Shown piece by piece: positions 8,178 through 58,135 of a DNA stretch of 64,000 nucleotides. Position numbers and translations under genes: made by a program. Below the pieces are notes generated by a model. The model saw nothing but the letters and a program-made list of their open reading frames with translations. It was not told where the DNA came from and did no database searches. Source of the stretch: Bauldia sp. (lineage in GTDB: Bacteria > Pseudomonadota > Alphaproteobacteria > Rhizobiales > Kaistiaceae); contig JAHCJZ010000001.1 in the NCBI GenBank assembly GCA_026126025.1, forward strand, positions 124,001 through 188,000, written 5' to 3'. Each line of letters begins with the position of its first letter. Position 1 is the stretch's first letter.

Positions 8178-9468
8178 GGGATTGGGCGGCGCGATGCTGT
8201 CCGCCTATGGGGCCGCCGGCACGCTGTTGCGTCCGGTCCTGCCCCTCGTGCTCCGCCTTCGGGCGCAGCGCGGCCGCGAGGATCCCGGCCGGCTGGGCGA
8301 GCGGAAGGGGATCGCCTCCGCGCCGCGGCCGCCCGGCGACCTCCTCTGGGTCCACGCCGCCAGCGTCGGTGAGACCAACGCCGTGATGCCGCTCGTCCAC
8401 CGCCTCGCCGAAGCCGGCTGGGCGATCGTCTTCACCACGGTCACCGTGACCGGGGCGACGACGGCGGCGCGCTCGCTGCCCCCCGGCGCGATCCACCAGT
8501 TCGTGCCGGTGGATGTGCGTCCCTGGGTGCGGCGCTTCCTCGCGCATTGGCGGCCCGCGGCGGCGCTCTTCGTCGAGTCGGAGATCTGGCCAGTCACCAC
8601 GGGCGAGCTGGCACGGCTGCAGGTGCCGCACGTCATCGTCAACGGGCGCATGTCGGAGCGCGCCTATCGCTCGTGGCTGCGCTATGGCAAGGCCGCGCAC
8701 GGCGTCTTCGGCCGGATCGGCCCGGTGCTCGCGCAGAGCGCCGCCGACGGCGAGCGCATGACCGCGCTCGGCGCGCCAAACGTCGCCGTCCTCGGCAACC
8801 TCAAATTCGACGCCCCGCCGCCGCCGGCCGATGCGGCGGCGCTCGCCACGCTCTCCGCCCAGCTCGGGCGCCGGCCGCGCTGGCTCGCCGCGAGCACCCA
8901 TCCCGGCGAGGAGGGGATCGTCGCCGACGCCCACCGCCGGCTGCTGGAGCGCCATCCGACCCTCGTCACGATGGTCGTGCCCCGCCATCCCGAGCGCGGC
9001 GCCGCCATTGTCGACGCGTTGGGCAAGGGCAACGCGTCGGTCTGGCTGCGCAGCCGCGGCGGCGCGCTCGGGCCGGGCCCGGGGATCCTCGTCGGCGACA
9101 CGCTGGGCGAGCTCGGCCTGTTCTACCGGCTTGCGCCGGTGTCGTTCGTCGGCGGCTCGATCGCGCCGCGGGGCGGGCAGAACCCGATCGAGCCGGTCCG
9201 GCTGCGAAGCGCCATCCTCCACGGGCCCGAGACGGCAAACTTCGCCGAAATCTACGCCGCGCTCGGCCGCGCCGGCGGCGCGGTCGAAACGCCCGACGCC
9301 GCGACGATGGCGTCCGTCGTCGCTCGCCTCCTCGGCGACGAGGCGACGCGCCTTCGCCAGCTCGTCGCCGCCGAAACCGCGCTCGAGCCGTTTTCGGGCG
9401 CACTGCGCCGTACGCTCGATGCCCTCGCGCCGATCCTCGCCGCGGCACGGGAGAGGGGAGGCGCCTGA
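8170..9468 (+). CDS. waaA: 3-deoxy-D-manno-octulosonic acid (Kdo) transferase
   Basis: A GT30 glycosyltransferase of 432 residues that adds Kdo from CMP-Kdo to lipid IVA at the inner face of the cytoplasmic membrane. Visible are the N-terminal membrane anchor (LLRPVLPLVLRL), WVHAASVGETNA with its catalytic Glu, FVESEIWP, LAASTHPGEE and GSIAPRGGQNPIEP. It overlaps the DUF374 gene by 8 bp and ends in TGATG with lpxK, so the lipid A-Kdo steps are coupled. Confidence 0.95.
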   Translation: MPEGLGGAMLSAYGAAGTLLRPVLPLVLRLRAQRGREDPGRLGERKGIASAPRPPGDLLWVHAASVGETNAVMPLVHRLAEAGWAIVFTTVTVTGATTAARSLPPGAIHQFVPVDVRPWVRRFLAHWRPAAALFVESEIWPVTTGELARLQVPHVIVNGRMSERAYRSWLRYGKAAHGVFGRIGPVLAQSAADGERMTALGAPNVAVLGNLKFDAPPPPADAAALATLSAQLGRRPRWLAASTHPGEEGIVADAHRRLLERHPTLVTMVVPRHPERGAAIVDALGKGNASVWLRSRGGALGPGPGILVGDTLGELGLFYRLAPVSFVGGSIAPRGGQNPIEPVRLRSAILHGPETANFAEIYAALGRAGGAVETPDAATMASVVARLLGDEATRLRQLVAAETALEPFSGALRRTLDALAPILAAARERGGA

Positions 9469-10505
9469 TGGCCCGCGCACCGCGCTTCTGGCAACGCCGC
9501 GGCCCGACCGCGCTCGCGCTGTGGCCGGCGTCGCGCATCTGGGGGAGCCGCGTGGCGCGGCGCATGGCGCGAAGCCCGTCATTTCTCGCGCCGGTGCCGG
9601 TGATCTGCGTCGGCAACTACACCACGGGCGGCGAGGGCAAGACGCCGACCGCGATCGCGCTGGCGCGGCTCGCGGTTGAGGAGGGCCTTCGCCCCGGCTT
9701 TCTGTCGCGCGGCCATGGCGGCGTCGAGCGCGGGCCGGTGATCGTCGTGGAGCGCGACACCGCCTGGCGCGTCGGCGACGAGCCGCTGCTCCTCGCCCGG
9801 GTCGCGCCGACCGTGGTGTCGCGCGACCGGCCGTCCGGCGCGCGGCTCCTCATCGAGAAGACCGGGGTTGACCTCATCATCATGGATGACGGCTTCCAGA
9901 ACCCGTCGCTGGGGAAGGACCTCGTCTTCGTCGCCGCCGACGCCGAGAGCGGCTTCGGCAACGGGCTGGTGCTTCCCGCCGGGCCACTGCGCGCTCCGCT
10001 GGCGGTGCAGTTGCAGCGGACCGACGCGCTGGTGCTGATCGGGGAGGGCGCCGCCGCGCCGGGGCTTGCGCGGCTCGCCGCGCGCGGCAATCTCGATCTC
10101 TTCCGTGCTCATCTCGAGCCCGCGAGCCGCGAAGGCTGGGCGGCGCGCCCGGTGCTCGCCTTTGCCGGCATCGGCCATCCGCAGAAATTCTTCGCCGGGC
10201 TCGAGCAGGTCGGCGCCAAATTCGCCGGGCGCATTCCCTTCCCCGACCACCACGCCTTCACCGCGGACGAAGCCGAGATGCTGCTGCAGCGGGCGCGCTC
10301 CGGCGCGCTCCGGCTCGTCACCACCGAGAAGGACCTCGCGCGCCTCTACGGCGCCAGCGGCAAGCTCGGCGAACTGGCGGCGGCGTCCGAGCCGTTCAAG
10401 GTGCGGCTCGTCTTCGACCGGCCCGAGGCGGTGCGGGCGATGATCCGCGCCGCGGTGGAACGGGTGCGCACCAACCGGCGGCGCGCCCTAGCGGTGGCGC
10501 AGTGA
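9468..10505 (+). CDS. lpxK: tetraacyldisaccharide 4'-kinase
   Basis: A 345-residue membrane-associated P-loop kinase that phosphorylates the 4' position of the lipid A disaccharide. The Walker A GGEGKTP is at about 54-60, preceded by VPVICVGNYTTGG. MDDGFQNPSL and FPDHHAFT are further LpxK signatures. ATG 9468 shares one base with the waaA stop. The gene converges with and overlaps the DUF2093 gene by 18 bp. Confidence 0.95.
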   Translation: MARAPRFWQRRGPTALALWPASRIWGSRVARRMARSPSFLAPVPVICVGNYTTGGEGKTPTAIALARLAVEEGLRPGFLSRGHGGVERGPVIVVERDTAWRVGDEPLLLARVAPTVVSRDRPSGARLLIEKTGVDLIIMDDGFQNPSLGKDLVFVAADAESGFGNGLVLPAGPLRAPLAVQLQRTDALVLIGEGAAAPGLARLAARGNLDLFRAHLEPASREGWAARPVLAFAGIGHPQKFFAGLEQVGAKFAGRIPFPDHHAFTADEAEMLLQRARSGALRLVTTEKDLARLYGASGKLGELAAASEPFKVRLVFDRPEAVRAMIRAAVERVRTNRRRALAVAQ

Positions 10506-51500: not shown

Positions 51501-51803
51501 ATGGCTGAACCTGCACAGAAACCCGGCGGCGGCCGGCTGCGCGCCGAGCGGCTCGAAACCCGCATTACCGTTGAACAGAAGCAACTCATCGAGCATGCGG
51601 CCGCGCTCCAGGGAAGGACCGTGACGGACTTCGTGCTGACCAGCGTGCAGGATGCCGCGCGGCGTGCCATCGAGGAGCACCGCCAGATCGAGTTGTCGGT
51701 CGCCGACAGCCGGGTCTTCGTGGATGCCTTGCTCCACCCCCGCCCCGTCAACGCCCGCCTGAAGCAGACGATCCGCCGCTACCGCAATGCGACGGGCGTC
51801 TAG
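51501..51803 (+). CDS. DUF1778 (TacA-like) antitoxin
   Basis: A 100-residue protein. The ribbon-helix-helix core RLETRITVEQKQLIEHAAALQGRTVTDFVLTSV is the DUF1778 signature, followed by the toxin-neutralising tail with the conserved phenylalanine (LSVADSRVFVDALLHPRP). GGAGACC lies 7 bp before the ATG. Partner of the GNAT toxin gene 3 bp downstream. Confidence 0.92.
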   Translation: MAEPAQKPGGGRLRAERLETRITVEQKQLIEHAAALQGRTVTDFVLTSVQDAARRAIEEHRQIELSVADSRVFVDALLHPRPVNARLKQTIRRYRNATGV

Positions 51804-51806
51804 GGT

Positions 51807-52319
51807 GTGGCGGGAGAGGCTGAGGGCCTGCGACGTACCGAGCTCCTCGCCGCGCACCACAACCGTGCGTCCTTCGAATGCGGCATCGAACCGCTCGACC
51901 GCTATCTGAAGGTGCAGGCCGGGCAGGATGCCCGCAAGAACATCGCTGCGCCCTTTGTCCTGGCGCTGCCGGGCGGTGAGGTCATCGGGTACTACACGCT
52001 CTCCTCGACGTCGGTGACGCCGGGGGAGCTGCCCGCAGAGGTCATCCGCCGACTTCCGCGCTATCCTCAAATCCCCGCGACGCTGCTCGGCCGGCTGGCG
52101 GTCGACAGGCGTTACCAAGGTCGGGGCCATGGCCGCTTTCTCCTGGCGGATGCCCTCTACCGCGCCGTGCGCAGCGAGATCGCCTCGTTTGCCGTGATCG
52201 TCGACGCCAAGGGCGAGGAGGCGCGCCGCTTCTACCAGCGCGAAAGCTTCATACCGTTTCCGGATCGGCCGATGCGGCTGTTCCGTCCGATGGCAGACTT
52301 GGCGGCGCTTTTCGCCTAG
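51807..52319 (+). CDS. GNAT-family (TacT-like) toxin
   Basis: A 170-residue acetyltransferase starting at GTG. FECGIEPLDRYLKVQAGQDARKNIAAPFVL is the hallmark of TacT/AtaT-type toxins, which acetylate the amino group of charged tRNA and stop translation. The acetyl-CoA P-loop RRYQGRGHGRFLL and the catalytic Tyr (EEARRFYQRESFIPFP) are intact, so the toxin looks active. Pairs with the DUF1778 antitoxin. Confidence 0.92.
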   Translation: MAGEAEGLRRTELLAAHHNRASFECGIEPLDRYLKVQAGQDARKNIAAPFVLALPGGEVIGYYTLSSTSVTPGELPAEVIRRLPRYPQIPATLLGRLAVDRRYQGRGHGRFLLADALYRAVRSEIASFAVIVDAKGEEARRFYQRESFIPFPDRPMRLFRPMADLAALFA

Positions 52320-52351: not shown

Positions 52352-53356
52352 ATGAACGATTTGGGCCGCCGCTTCGCCGTTGCCCCGATGATGGACTGGA
52401 CCGACCGGCATTGCCGCTCGTTCCATCGCCGGCTGTCGCGGCATGCCTTGCTCTATACCGAGATGATCACCGCCGAGGCGATCATCCGCGGCGACCGCGA
52501 ACGCCTCCTGGCGTTCGAGCCGCTCCAGCATCCGGTGGCGCTGCAGCTCGGCGGTTCCGACCCGGCGCGCCTCACCGAGGCCGCGCGCATCGGGGCTGCC
52601 TTCGGCTATGACGAGATCAATCTCAATGTCGGCTGCCCGTCCGACCGCGTGAAGTCGGGCACCTTCGGCGCGTGCCTGATGCTGACGCCGGCGCTGGTCG
52701 GCGCATGCGTGGCGGCGATGCGGGCGGCGGTCGATGTGCCGGTGACCGTCAAATGCCGCCTTGGCGTCGACGACCAGGACGCGGAGACCGCGCTCGATGC
52801 GCTTGCGGACGCTGTCGTCGCGGCGGGCGCATCGGCGATCTGGGTCCATGCCCGCAAGGCATGGCTGAAGGGCCTCAGCCCGAAGGAGAACCGCACCGTC
52901 CCGCCCCTCGACCATGACCGCGTCCACCGCCTCAAGGCGCGGTTGCCGGATGTCTTCATCGGCATCAATGGCGGGATCGCGGATCTCGACAGCGCGGAGG
53001 CGCATTTGGCCCATGTCGACGGGGTCATGCTGGGCCGGGCCGCCTATCACCGCCCCGACCTCCTCGCCGAGGTCGACCGCCGCTTCTTCGGTGCGGCCGG
53101 CCTGGACGCCGATCCGTTCGCGGTGGCCCGGGCGATGATCGGCTACGCCCGTGCCGAATGCGCCGAGGGCGTCCCCGTCCATCACATCACGCGGCACATG
53201 CTCGGCCTCTTCCACGGCCAGCCCGGTGCCCGCGCGTGGCGTCAGATGCTGACCACGGGCGCTTCGAAGCCAGGCGCGGGACCGGAGGTCATCGCCGCCG
53301 CCCTCGCGGTCGTCGAGGCGGCGCGGAGCGAGGCGACGGCAGACGCCGCGGCCTGA
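52352..53356 (+). CDS. dusA: tRNA-dihydrouridine(20/20a) synthase
   Basis: A 334-residue FMN-dependent TIM barrel reducing U20/U20a in tRNA. FAVAPMMDWTDRHCRSFHR at the N-terminus, INLNVGCPSDRVKSGTFGACLM with the catalytic Cys, and GINGGIADLDSA are DusA-specific. ATG 52352. It meets the stop of the retropepsin-like gene with no gap. Confidence 0.95.
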   Translation: MNDLGRRFAVAPMMDWTDRHCRSFHRRLSRHALLYTEMITAEAIIRGDRERLLAFEPLQHPVALQLGGSDPARLTEAARIGAAFGYDEINLNVGCPSDRVKSGTFGACLMLTPALVGACVAAMRAAVDVPVTVKCRLGVDDQDAETALDALADAVVAAGASAIWVHARKAWLKGLSPKENRTVPPLDHDRVHRLKARLPDVFIGINGGIADLDSAEAHLAHVDGVMLGRAAYHRPDLLAEVDRRFFGAAGLDADPFAVARAMIGYARAECAEGVPVHHITRHMLGLFHGQPGARAWRQMLTTGASKPGAGPEVIAAALAVVEAARSEATADAAA

Positions 53357-54091
53357 TCACGGCGTCAGCGTCATCCGGTTGCCGCTGATGGTGAAGCTCT
53401 GGAGCTCGTTGAGGAAATTGAGCCCGAGGAGGCTCGTCTCCAGCATGCCGGGCTGCGCCACCAGCGCCGCGACGCGGTTCATCCGGATCGAGCCGATCGC
53501 GAGGCGCTCGATTACCACCGGCGCGGCGAGCGCGACGCCATTGGCGGTCGAGACCTGCACGACATAGTCGCGCGCCCGCGGCGTGTAGCCCGCGAGCCAG
53601 GCGTCCTCGGCCGAGAGGGTCACGACGCTGGCGCCGGTGTCGATCATCATCTCGACCGGGGCGTTGTTGACCGTCGCCCGCACATTGAAGTGCCCGCCGG
53701 AGCGGGTGACGATGACCTCGTTGGTCTCGCCGTCGGTCGTCATCATCGCGGTGCCGGGGAAGAGCTCCGAGCTGACCCGGCGGAACATCCATTCCAGCTC
53801 GTCGCGATAGGTGTAGCCGACGAGCACCACGATGAAGATCGCCGCCCAGGCGATCGCCTGGCGGAGCAGCCGCCCCACCGGCGTGCGCCCGATCAGCCCG
53901 GCGAAAAGGAACGCCGAGATCGCGATGAGGCCGGCAAGCTGGGCGAAGCGGTTGTCGGCAAGCCCGAGGATGGCGTCGTCGCCGCCGCGAAAGACGAGGA
54001 GGAGCGCCGCCAGCGCGATGATGGCGACGGCGAGCCAGAGAAAGACCGGCCTGCCGCGTCGCGGCGGGGGCGTGGTCTCGTCGACCGCCAT
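53357..54091 (-). CDS. membrane-anchored retropepsin-like aspartic protease (TIGR02281 type)
   Basis: A 244-residue protein. Three membrane helices in the N-terminal half (LWLAVAIIALAALLLVF, LAGLIAISAFLFAGLIG, AIAWAAIFIVVLVGYTY) precede a clan AA aspartic protease domain with the single catalytic motif MMIDTGASVVTLS. Flap and dimer segments follow (SLLGLNFLNELQSFTIS). The catalytic domain should face the periplasm and act as a homodimer. The substrate is unknown. Confidence 0.85.
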   Translation of the reverse strand: MAVDETTPPPRRGRPVFLWLAVAIIALAALLLVFRGGDDAILGLADNRFAQLAGLIAISAFLFAGLIGRTPVGRLLRQAIAWAAIFIVVLVGYTYRDELEWMFRRVSSELFPGTAMMTTDGETNEVIVTRSGGHFNVRATVNNAPVEMMIDTGASVVTLSAEDAWLAGYTPRARDYVVQVSTANGVALAAPVVIERLAIGSIRMNRVAALVAQPGMLETSLLGLNFLNELQSFTISGNRMTLTP

Positions 54092-54147: not shown

Positions 54148-54954
54148 TCACGCGAAGGCCAAGGCGAGGAGGAGATAGGTGACCGCGGTCACCTGCTGGA
54201 CCGCGCCCAGCGTCTCGCGGGTGTAGCCGCCGAGACGGCGCCGGCACCATGCCTCGAGCGCGAAGGTTGCGGCGGCCGCGCCGGCGAGCGCCACGATCAT
54301 CGGCCAGACGCCGACCGCGATCGCGGTGAGGATCGCGGCGATGAGCGCGCCAATGGCGATGGCCGTGGTGGTGCCGCGCTCGTCGGGGACGCTGAGGCCG
54401 GCGGTCGCCGGATCCTGCGTCGCCGGCGCGAGCGCCCGCCACGGGCGGACCATCGCCCCGAACGACACCGCTTCCGCCGCGATCAGGACGAACAGCCCGT
54501 CGGTCTCGTACGGCACCGCGAGCCCGCCAAGCGCTGCGGCCGAAAGGGAGACCGCGAAGACGATGGCGAGCACGCCGCGCGCGCCGAGCGGGCCGGCGAG
54601 CCGGGCGATCCGCCCCGGCGGCGTGTCGCCGGCGCCGGCTTCCGCGGTGGCGGCGAGCCCGGCCTCGTTCACGGCGCCGGTCAGCGTCACCACGACCAGG
54701 ATGGCGAGAAGGCCCGCGACGAGCGAATTGAGGCCGATCGCGATGGCGATGAGGAGCGCGATGCCGCCGGCAATGCCGATCCCCGCGCCGATGACCGGGA
54801 AGGTCCATGCCGCCTTGGCGACCTGGCCGGGGAGCGGCGCGCTGCCCCATTGCGGCGGCATGCCCGGGATGCGGGTCAGGAAGGCGAGGCCGGTAATGAG
54901 ATCCGAAATCCCGGCGGCCCGCGGATCGGGGCCGGCCTTGTCGTCGGAGGCCAT
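54148..54954 (-). CDS. CobS-like protein with degenerate catalytic motifs
   Basis: A 268-residue polytopic membrane protein clearly derived from cobalamin synthase (adenosylcobinamide-GDP ribazoletransferase): LAFLTRIP, LTGAVNEAGL, RRRLGGYTRETLGAVQQVT. In functional family members the core reads HEDGLxDTADG and later MKDSRIGxxG and GGxTGD. Here residues 96-106 read NEAGLAATAEA, the second motif LAGPLGARG, and the third YTRET. The Mg2+-binding Asp residues are therefore gone, although the frame is intact. It is divergent from a cobT-like gene with similar losses. ATG 54954 is chosen; a TTG at 54984 is possible. Confidence 0.8.
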   Translation of the reverse strand: MASDDKAGPDPRAAGISDLITGLAFLTRIPGMPPQWGSAPLPGQVAKAAWTFPVIGAGIGIAGGIALLIAIAIGLNSLVAGLLAILVVVTLTGAVNEAGLAATAEAGAGDTPPGRIARLAGPLGARGVLAIVFAVSLSAAALGGLAVPYETDGLFVLIAAEAVSFGAMVRPWRALAPATQDPATAGLSVPDERGTTTAIAIGALIAAILTAIAVGVWPMIVALAGAAAATFALEAWCRRRLGGYTRETLGAVQQVTAVTYLLLALAFA

Positions 54955-55043
54955 GTCTGCGCCGCCACGATGCTTGTCGTTCAACTTCAGGGATTTATAG
55001 AAGGCCGGCGGGCGGCGGTACAGAGACGCCGCCGCGCCAGTTG

Positions 55044-56006
55044 ATGCCTCACTTAACGGCAGTCCCCATGCCCCCGCCGCCCGTCCGGCCGCTCGACGAC
55101 ATCCGTACGATCATCGCTGGCCTGCCCGCGGCGGACCGCGCGGCCGTCGCTGCGCTTCGCGAGCGGCGGCTCGGCAGCCCCGCCGGCGAGCTGGGCGCCT
55201 TCGAGGACATCCTCGCCTGGCTGGCGGCATGGCAGGGCAAGGATCCGCCGACCGCCAGCCGGCCGCAGATCGTGGTGTTTGCCGGCAATCACGGTGTCGC
55301 CGCCCGCCACCGGCGCGGCGGCGCCGCCCGCGAGATCGCCGCCCTCGCGGCGGGGACGACCACGCTCAACCGCCTCTGCCAGGCGAACGGCATCGGCCTG
55401 AAGGCGTTCGACCTCGCGCTGGAGACCGCGACCGCCGATTCTGCCCGGGCGCCGGCGATGAGCGAGGTCGAATGCGCCGCGACGATCGCCTTCGGCATGG
55501 AGGCGGCAGCCGGCAATGTCGATCTTCTCGCGGTGAGCGGGATCGGCGACGGCTCGGCGCTCGCCGCGGCCGCGATCGGGCGGTCGCTGTTTGGCGGCAT
55601 GGTCCCGTCATGGCTCGACCGGCGCGCGCGGGCCGGGACCGCCGAGAAGGTCGCGGACGCCGTGGGGCGCCACCTCCCTGCTGCCGACGACGTGGTCGAC
55701 CTCGCGCGCCGCCTCGGCGGCCGCGAGACGGCCGCGATCATCGGCGCGATCCTCGCCGCGCGGATCGCACGCGTGCCGGTGCTGGTCGACGGCCTCGCCG
55801 CCACAGTCGCCGCCGCCCTCCTCCAGGCGGCCGCGCCGGCGGCGATCGACCATTGCCGCTTCACGCAGCCCGCCGCCGGCCGGGTGCACCGGCGCTTGCT
55901 CGACGCCATCGGCGCACGCCCCGTCCTCGACACCGCCCCCGCCGGCCCCGGCATCGGCTCGGTGCTGGCGATCGCGGCCATCAAGGCAATGGTGGCGGCG
56001 GCCTGA
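55044..56006 (+). CDS. CobT-like protein lacking the family's catalytic glutamates
   Basis: A 320-residue relative of nicotinate-nucleotide:dimethylbenzimidazole phosphoribosyltransferase. VVFAGNHGVAAR, CAATIAFGMEAAAG, RRLGGRETAAIIGAILAAR and AAIDHCRF fit the family well. The substrate loop GEMGIGNTT is replaced by AVSGIGDGS, the KPPGxLG loop by SPAGELG, and the GEGTGA loop carrying the catalytic Glu (Glu317 of Salmonella CobT) by GPGIGS. The reading frame is full length. No cobalamin riboswitch is seen upstream. The start (ATG 55044 or 55068) is uncertain. Confidence 0.8.
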   Translation: MPHLTAVPMPPPPVRPLDDIRTIIAGLPAADRAAVAALRERRLGSPAGELGAFEDILAWLAAWQGKDPPTASRPQIVVFAGNHGVAARHRRGGAAREIAALAAGTTTLNRLCQANGIGLKAFDLALETATADSARAPAMSEVECAATIAFGMEAAAGNVDLLAVSGIGDGSALAAAAIGRSLFGGMVPSWLDRRARAGTAEKVADAVGRHLPAADDVVDLARRLGGRETAAIIGAILAARIARVPVLVDGLAATVAAALLQAAAPAAIDHCRFTQPAAGRVHRRLLDAIGARPVLDTAPAGPGIGSVLAIAAIKAMVAAA

Positions 56007-56070
56007 CACCCTTGGGGGGGAGGGTCGCAAGCGCCGCGGTTCGCATTCCAACGCTGCCTGACAACACGCC

Positions 56071-56184
56071 CCTCCCCCTTCAGGGGGAGGCAGGTGGGGG
56101 TCAACGGCGGTGCAGCAACCTCAGATTCGATGGCTGTCGCACGGCCGCGGGAACCCCACCCATCCTCCCCTTTTCAAGGGGAGG
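56071..56184. repeat. CCTCCCC...GGGGAGG palindromic repeats
   Basis: CCTCCCCCTTCAGGGGGAGG (56071-56090) and CCTCCCCTT-TTC-AAGGGGAGG (56164-56184) flank about 75 bp, and shorter G-tracts occur on both sides (56007-56230). They are related to the cluster at 31596-31718. The segment lies between the convergent cobT-like and HerA-like genes and holds no ORF of note. Confidence 0.75.
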
Positions 56185-56231
56185 GGTCGCAAGCGGCTCG
56201 GGGAGCGTTCAAGCGCGCCCCACAGCCTGAC

Positions 56232-58073
56232 CTAGGCGTCGTCGCTGCGGCCGAAGGCGGCGCGGTTGAAGCCGAGCGGCCGGCCGGTGCCTTCCACGCT
56301 GCGCGGAGTGGGGGCGCTGCGGTCCGGCGTTGCGGTCTCGCGGGGAGGCGCGGACGGGGCGAGCGCCCGCTCTGCCTGGTCCTGGAGCAGGCCCGGCAGC
56401 CCGTCGATCGGCGGCGGTACGCCGCGGCTCATGCTGGCGTTCCGCCAGCGCTCCACGACCGCCGCGACCATCGGGCGCGTGACCGAGCTCGCCTCGCCGA
56501 CGCCTTCGCCGGCGGTGGTGCTCTGAGGCAGGAGGTGCTTCGGCAGGCGATGGAAGCGAAGCCGCGTCGGCAGCGACACGCCCTCGCCGAACGCGAACAC
56601 CTCGCCGGTGCCGAGCGACGGCACGAAGGCGAGGAGGCTTGCCGCGGCGTCCGAGACTGCCGAGCGCACGATGTCCTGGTCGCGGTCGTTGGCCATGCGC
56701 ATCGTGAAGAGCGTGCTGCACTGGGAGAGGATCGTCGCGTCGAGCTCGGCCGGGCGCTGGGTGATAAGGCCGAGATGGACCGCGTATTTGCGGCCCTCCT
56801 TGGCGATGCGGGACAGCGCCTTCTTGGTCGGCCCGAAGCCGATCGACTTGTCCGCCGGCGCGTAGCGGTGGGATTCCTCGCAGACCACCAGCAGCGGCAC
56901 CGCGCCGCCGCTCCACAGCCCGAACTCGAACGCCATCCGGCACAGCACGGACACCAGCGAGTCCACGACCTCGGCCGGGAAGCCGGCGAGCTGCAGCACG
57001 CTGACATTGGTGCCGTCCTCGGTGAGCTGGAAGACGCGGGTCAGCACGTCGACCATGGTGTCGCCGCCGACATTGGCGCTCTGGAACATGAAGCCGTAGC
57101 GGGGATCGTTCGACAGCGTCTCGATGCGGCTGATCAGGCGGTTGTATTTCGGGAACGCAGAGCGGTTCTCCAGCTTCCCCATCCGGTCGTCGATGACGTC
57201 GATGAGGTCGGAAAGCCGGTAGGGCACGGGCGTGTCGACCGTGTAGCCGCCGCGCTCTCCGGCGGCGGCCTTGCGCAGGCTCACCTTCTGGCCGTCGCGC
57301 TCGCTGGCGAAGCGGTTCTTGGCCTCGGGGATCGCCTCGCTGAGGATGCCGACCTCCTCATCCACGCCCGGGCGGGCGCGGAAGATCGCATCGACGATCT
57401 CCTCGAAATTGAAGAGCCAGAATGGGAGGCGGAGCGTCGTCGGGCTCAGCACCTGCGCCGCCGGTCCGAAGCATTGGCCGTATTCATTGTGCGGATCGAC
57501 CAGGAACACCCGCTGCTGCGGCCGGGCGCGAAGGATCTCGCGCAGGATCACCGCAACGCCGCTCGACTTGCCGACGCCGGTGGTGCCGAGAATGGCGAAA
57601 TGCTTGTTCACCATCTCGTCGACGTCGATATAGGCCGGGATGGCGCCGTCCTGCGACAGCCTGCCGATCTCGATCGTGTGCTGGCCGCTGAGGTCGTAGA
57701 TGAGGCGGAGCTGGTCCGTCGTCATCAGCGCGACCGCGTCACCGATCACCGGATAGCCGCTGATGCCGCGCTGGAAGAAATGCTTCCCGGTATCGGCAAG
57801 GGCGATCTCGCCGAGAAGGTCGATGTCGGCGCCCGCATGGCCCCGGCTGCCGTCGGAGACGGCCGTGATCGCGCCGACGACGATCGACGAGGAGGTGGCG
57901 ATCGCGACGAGCTTGCCGACCGTCAGCGGCGCCTCGCCCGCGACCGTCGCGCGGTCGTCCGCAAGGCTCATGACCGCGCTCGATCCGCTGACCGACACGA
58001 TCCTGCCGCGGGGCGCCGGATCGGCGGCGGCAAACTGGCTGGGAGCAGGTGAATCCACCGGGCGCACCTTCAT
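56232..58073 (-). CDS. HerA-like ATPase with HAS-barrel domain
   Basis: About 613 residues. An N-terminal HAS-barrel-like beta domain (GRIVSVSGSSAVMSLADDRA, GDAVALMTTDQLRLIYD) precedes a FtsK/HerA-type ATPase: Walker A AILGTTGVGKSSGVAV, Walker B PLLVVCEESHRYAP, and sensor ITQRPAELDATILSQC. The tail (last 80 residues) is Pro/Ser/Arg-rich and disordered-looking. Bacterial HerA-like proteins take part in DNA translocation, repair or defence; without a NurA-type nuclease nearby the role is open. Two TTAACC motifs lie upstream. Confidence 0.85.
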   Translation of the reverse strand: MKVRPVDSPAPSQFAAADPAPRGRIVSVSGSSAVMSLADDRATVAGEAPLTVGKLVAIATSSSIVVGAITAVSDGSRGHAGADIDLLGEIALADTGKHFFQRGISGYPVIGDAVALMTTDQLRLIYDLSGQHTIEIGRLSQDGAIPAYIDVDEMVNKHFAILGTTGVGKSSGVAVILREILRARPQQRVFLVDPHNEYGQCFGPAAQVLSPTTLRLPFWLFNFEEIVDAIFRARPGVDEEVGILSEAIPEAKNRFASERDGQKVSLRKAAAGERGGYTVDTPVPYRLSDLIDVIDDRMGKLENRSAFPKYNRLISRIETLSNDPRYGFMFQSANVGGDTMVDVLTRVFQLTEDGTNVSVLQLAGFPAEVVDSLVSVLCRMAFEFGLWSGGAVPLLVVCEESHRYAPADKSIGFGPTKKALSRIAKEGRKYAVHLGLITQRPAELDATILSQCSTLFTMRMANDRDQDIVRSAVSDAAASLLAFVPSLGTGEVFAFGEGVSLPTRLRFHRLPKHLLPQSTTAGEGVGEASSVTRPMVAAVVERWRNASMSRGVPPPIDGLPGLLQDQAERALAPSAPPRETATPDRSAPTPRSVEGTGRPLGFNRAAFGRSDDA

Positions 58074-58135
58074 TCGCACGGCCGCCGGACGCGGCCTGAA
58101 CCGGCGCGAACTCTAGGAAAACAATGCCAAGGCCG

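Follow-up and report, generated by a model that had tools for sequence, protein, structure and literature searches.

The window, that is, the whole stretch of 64,000 nucleotides of Bauldia sp. DNA analysed here, encodes a CobT-like protein in which both catalytic glutamates, the phosphate- and base-binding loops and the C-terminal tail of CobT have been lost, in a host without the pathway, and this protein is read, at a probability of about one half, as a pseudoenzyme that would have kept a catalysis-independent role. CobT is the NaMN:DMB phosphoribosyltransferase and CobS the adenosylcobinamide-GDP ribazoletransferase, and structures of CobT have been solved for Salmonella, Thermus, and Yersinia. 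The gene and its neighbours were assigned as follows.

52352-53356, plus strand: DusA, a neighbour conserved across the family as well as in the other lineages with odd CobT copies.
53357-54091, minus strand: TIGR02281 clan AA aspartic protease, a conserved neighbour and marker of the ancestral locus.
54148-54954, minus strand: degenerate CobS homologue (Pfam CobS match, alignment), with ATG at 54954 and TTG at 54984.
55044-56006, plus strand: CobT-like (DBI_PRT family) protein of 320 aa lacking both catalytic glutamates (open reading frame, profile matches, alignment).
56232-58079, minus strand: HerA-like ATPase, which directly adjoins the aspartic protease in the sister species G008 and G009.

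The CobT-like gene is one open frame with a possible earlier start (TTG at 55041). The original prediction had placed a CobT homologue at 55536-55958; the assignment holds, and those coordinates cover only the central and C-terminal part of the frame. Homology to the family was detected with Pfam DBI_PRT (PF02277, 160.6 bits), and the scores fell under both NCBIfam cut-offs (TIGR03160, 133.5 against 319 bits; NF000996, 159.4 against 306 bits). Of the features of an active CobT, PF02277 homology and the fold are present, and the cut-off score, both glutamates, and the binding loops are not. The protein was modelled with AF2 (mean pLDDT, 88; pTM, 0.89), all of the top 36 Foldseek matches of the model were CobT or ArsAB, and the CobT fold is predicted to be intact. 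The protein resembles CobT (PF02277, TIGR03160) in family, in fold (TM about 0.8-0.85) and in the chromosomal locus of the family orthologues, and is 44-49% identical to CobT of Hyphomicrobiales. It is encoded by a single-copy gene, and no canonical CobT was found in the genome. No RNA families or tRNAs were found within the window.

The window protein was aligned with 130 Hyphomicrobiales orthologues (131 rows; glutamate positions in Salmonella numbering), and the following elements were found to be replaced or missing in this alignment, all on the plus strand.

55170-55196: LGSPAGELG in place of LTKPxGSLG (KPPG loop; Lys lost).
55305-55337: RHRRGGAA-REI in place of the base-pocket loop GVSAFPxxVTRQM, with an in-frame deletion of four residues.
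55536-55562: SGIGDGSAL (residues 165-173) in place of GEMGIGNTT, the equivalent of E174 being Gly166.
55608-55646: phosphate loop VGRGTG lost by an in-frame deletion of six residues, and RK lost (K199T).
55866-55880: QPAAG in place of HxSAE.
55932-55961: TA-PAGPGIGS in place of LGMRLGEGxGA, the equivalent of E317 being Pro302.
56001-56006: early end, the conserved C-terminal tail HxGMATFxxAGV being missing.

The loss of both catalytic glutamates, as originally predicted, was confirmed, and so were the change of the KPPG loop (KPxG to SPAG) and the reading GPGIGS for GEGTGA at residues 301-306, which puts Pro302 at the glutamate. For the first motif, given as AVSGIGDGS, the glutamate is gone as claimed, the register had been set two residues off, and no acidic residue falls on the glutamate column in either register. 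Four losses had not been part of that prediction, namely those of the GVSAFP...TRQM loop, the GRGTG loop, HxSAE, and the HxGMATF tail. In canonical relatives the first position is Glu in 147/148 and Asp in 1/148, and the second is Glu in 148/148. The window protein departs from the consensus at 45 of the 119 columns conserved to at least 95%, the next worst row doing so at 13, and it keeps 65 of the 92 columns conserved to at least 97% among the 130 orthologues and has lost 27. That catalysis has been lost is as sure as sequence allows. GC-rich inverted repeats (cccctccccctt...agggggagg and a similar one) occupy the intergenic positions 56030-56200, just downstream of the early stop, and the C-terminal tail may have been removed by their insertion; the scar left by the deletion in G008 (L226) contains stretches like these.

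An artefact of sequence or gene model (frameshift errors, a chimera or a wrong register) was considered, given the high-GC sequence and the earlier register that was two residues off. A frameshift-aware profile alignment revealed no hidden or compensated frameshift behind the lost motifs of CobT at penalties of at least 8, the frame reads through with a coding GC3 of 0.91, and the gene is part of a contig of 470 kb, in a genome that is 99.6% complete; an artefact is therefore very improbable.

One family member (G001) is Bauldia litoralis (identical sequence), which places the host in the Bauldia group of Hyphomicrobiales. The ancestral layout in the family is DusA, TIGR02281 aspartic protease, cobS and cobT, with cobS and cobT head-to-head, so that this arrangement is no sign of joint repurposing. 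In the other two genomes of the genus, G008 and G009, cobS-cobT has been cleanly deleted, and no traces of either gene were found by HMM in the gap. The apparent absence of cobT from G010, a candidate for a further loss, was rejected as an artefact, since a cobT frame is present there, cut short by the end of the contig. Two further features of the neighbourhood were recorded: the HerA-like ATPase, conserved beside the locus in the genus, has HerA_antiphage_2 as its best NCBIfam match (207/850 bits, under the cut-off), and two adjacent short frames at positions 51501-52319 (plus strand) probably encode, on a sequence reading, a type II toxin-antitoxin pair (DUF1778/TacA antitoxin, 51501-51803; GNAT acetyltransferase toxin, 51807-52319).

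The CobS homologue is, as had been described, degenerate and divergent from the CobT homologue; the acids of HEDGLAD...D have been lost. It was scored at 66 bits with Pfam CobS (146-174 bits in the other family members), and 15 of 35 strongly conserved columns have been lost, including H106, D108, D112, D115, D131, R175, and D257; HEDGLADxxD reads NEAGLAATAE (54640-54669, minus strand; NEAGLAATAEA against HEDGLADxxDG), and GGYTRE stands where GGxTGD is expected. Weak frameshifts appeared in its frameshift-aware alignment. Beside the CobT-like gene it is best regarded as a companion in decay, since none of the other odd lineages has cobS at the locus. A degenerate CobS suspected at L129 was ruled out, a full-scoring CobS being present there.

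CobU/P (PF02283), CbiB/CobD (PF03186) and CobO (PF02572) were found in none of the genus's three genomes (G000, the window's own, G008, and G009), and CobU/P, CbiB, and CobO are present in nearly all other family members searched. The set for nucleotide-loop assembly (CobU/CobP, CbiB/CobD, CobS, and CobT) is incomplete in the host, where the proposed genome search for canonical cobT and cobU returned neither. CobS has no substrate if CobU/P is missing, and the product of CobT then has no user. As CobU/P and CbiB are both missing, neither the CobT-like protein nor the CobS homologue can act in the old pathway. MetH, NrdJ and a PduO-type adenosyltransferase are retained in the genome. B12 riboswitches precede MetE, NrdAB and an operon for a BtuC-like transporter, and from this gene set it would appear that the host imports cobamide, uses B12 when available and has B12-independent backups. 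Two of these cobalamin riboswitches, before MetE and class I NrdAB, lie less than 10 kb apart (L222, G000:C41:194000-213500), and the control of MetE and NrdAB by riboswitches beside NrdJ and MetH represents a B12-controlled isoenzyme switch.

A redundant set of 268 CobT-like frames, from the order, related named loci and the window itself, was surveyed for similar losses. Both glutamates were missing only in the window protein and in the copies of G077 and G113 (genus g59), and a further degenerate CobT was present in G111.

L287, 9570-10487, minus strand: CobT copy of g59 lacking both glutamates (found here).
L288, 5480-6376, plus strand: CobT copy of g59 lacking both glutamates (found here).
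L354, within 9179-10483, minus strand: degenerate CobT of G111, with Ser at the first glutamate and the second (E317) kept.

The g59 loci have 40-44% GC. In the copies of genus g69 (G094 and G129) the first glutamate is Asp and the second motif is ISHGEG. Three other families carry degraded copies at this same locus, DusA-(TauE)-aspartic protease, divergent from the protease, and cobS is absent from the locus of the g59, G111, and g69 copies. The g59 and G111 copies, 31-41% identical to the window protein, share with it the locus, the loss of the C-terminal tail and overlapping sets of lost and kept columns, and differ from it in the absence of cobS at the locus; unlike the window's genome, g59 has canonical cobT-cobS elsewhere, and the G111 copy, unlike the window protein, keeps E317. 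In g59 and g69, canonical cobT is found elsewhere in the genome, beside cobS in the loci read. These cobT-cobS operons (L289, L290, and L293) are of a different type and look horizontally acquired. The canonical CobTs of g59 and g69 are sisters in the tree, which fits a foreign operon replacing the native function, and the odd copies of g69 cluster with their family's native CobT. At L356 (7626-8618, plus strand) and L357 (9528-10718, minus strand), native-locus CobTs of two species, 84% identical, carry GDLGVGNST and ISHGEG and have no cobS beside them; this variant is possibly one of altered specificity or half-degraded.

A clade of the window protein and the dead g59 copies appeared in the tree and was not accepted, as long branches meet there and vertical descent in the host family was not rejected (AU p 0.5). 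The tree is hampered by long-branch attraction; on synteny and family membership, the losses in the separate lineages are more likely to have been independent. The claim that the cobT and cobS forms were repurposed together was not supported: the layout is ancestral, the g59 and G111 loci have no cobS, both genes have been deleted in G008 and G009, and the two forms are accordingly not conserved together.

The distribution of the losses was compared with neutral decay. At columns conserved to at least 93%, the window protein has lost 23/31 in the active-site loops and 10/49 elsewhere, the loop ranges having been drawn after the alignment was seen, and this contrast was reached in 0/1200 simulations of neutral decay on family genes with GC-biased mutation. 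The comparisons with g59 and G111 are independent of that choice: the lost and kept columns of g59 predict those of the window protein (p=4e-5; neutral null, 0, 0, and 1 of 1000), and the same is true of the columns of G111 (p=9e-6). When columns were split by conservation in distant CobTs, losses were alike (16/47 versus 20/63), with no contrast. The window protein stands on a very long branch, of 2.2-4.5 changes per column (median near 0.5).

In the two species of g59 the dead copies are 67% identical; the corresponding figure is 68% for the canonical CobTs that these genomes also carry and 56-80% for genes nearby. The differences between the dead copies fall mostly at codon position 3; since dS of the pair is saturated, only relative protein identity and codon-position differences were used. 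Identity in the pocket and in the rest is 0.76 and 0.64 for canonical pairs of equal divergence, and 0.56 and 0.67 for the dead pair. The g59 protein was modelled with a pLDDT of 89. The dead g59 copies are under ordinary purifying selection, though they are no ordinary CobT, and as their pocket is no longer extra-conserved, the constraint lies on the fold or surface and not chiefly on the old pocket. In the window protein and in g59 alike, the fold has been kept beyond neutral expectation with catalysis lost.

A plain relic, in which cobS and cobT became useless after the switch to imported B12 and the core was spared by the cost of misfolding or because the loss is recent, is a strong contender, at somewhat below even odds. 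It agrees with the loss of the whole pathway in the genus, the clean deletion of cobS-cobT in G008 and G009, the simultaneous degeneration of cobS and cobT, the long branch, and the raised GC2 of the gene (0.59; family mean, 0.526; sd, 0.009), which is expected where GC-biased mutation meets relaxed constraint. The intact frame was dropped as evidence of function, because the probability of no stop is 0.14-0.50 when neutral decay at 70% GC is simulated to the same level of loss, and an open frame is uninformative at this GC. Moreover, the copy is kept by no close relative, two sister species live without the gene, and the core would be spared as well if a useless protein, while expressed, were constrained only to fold; all of this weighs against a pseudoenzyme. 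Against a relic, uniform neutral decay is rejected by the distribution of the losses, all internal indels are in frame, and equally dead CobT copies are under strong purifying selection in another lineage (g59).

An altered enzyme, with phosphoribosyl transfer or related nucleotide binding through another acid such as E49 or D169, is improbable. Both are new acids within rebuilt loops, and archaeal MjCobT is active with Val at the E317 position and supplies Asp52 instead (PMC9561151). However, MjCobT, whose structure has low similarity to the window protein (TM 0.5-0.59), retains a Glu equivalent to E174 (E150) that is absent in the window protein, the KP, GRGTG, RK, and HxSAE elements have been lost too, and no CobU/P or CbiB is available to use a product. 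A different substrate, as originally suggested, is unlikely for the same loss of the parts that bind the NaMN phosphate. ArsA/ArsB, the phenolic-base phosphoribosyltransferase heterodimer, are likewise divergent CobT homologues of PF02277; they retain the GEMG and GEG loops and occur in tandem pairs, whereas the window has a single copy without either glutamate.

In the pseudoenzyme reading, the window protein would descend from an ordinary CobT of the ancestral DusA-aspartic protease-cobS/cobT locus, its NaMN:base phosphoribosyltransferase activity would have been lost, and it would no longer take part in cobamide synthesis, which the genus has given up for B12 import. Its fold would still be constrained, most likely through a catalysis-independent role such as the binding of a partner protein, and other families may share this role through the glutamate-less CobT copies that occupy the same locus there. 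We infer that this constraint is still in force in the species of the window and, from its placement on the fold or surface, that the role is one of protein binding. For g59 the likelihood of a maintained role is much higher than for the window protein. What stands in favour of the original interpretation is that the loss in the CobT-like protein is focused on the active site and preserves the fold, in a way that random decay does not reproduce; repurposing of the pair is not supported. More broadly, CobT of Hyphomicrobiales may have a second, cobamide-independent function tied to the DusA-protease locus, persisting as a pseudoenzyme after synthesis was lost or a foreign cobT-cobS took over, with the window and g59 proteins as pure forms and the G111 copy and the E-to-D copies of g69 as intermediates; this is put forward tentatively, as an idea that would sooner fail than hold.

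No description of CobT pseudoenzymes was found in a full-text literature search, most subscription papers being outside its reach. Genome surveys rely on CobT to mark both the assembly of the cobamide nucleotide loop and the choice of lower ligand. Family-level annotation would miscount homologues lacking the glutamates; for the window protein, Pfam still gives a call of 160 bits. Should there be a reason why the dead copies have been retained, CobT would have a second function that has gone unrecognised, and genomes of the g59 type, in which canonical and dead copies occur together, would make this function directly testable.
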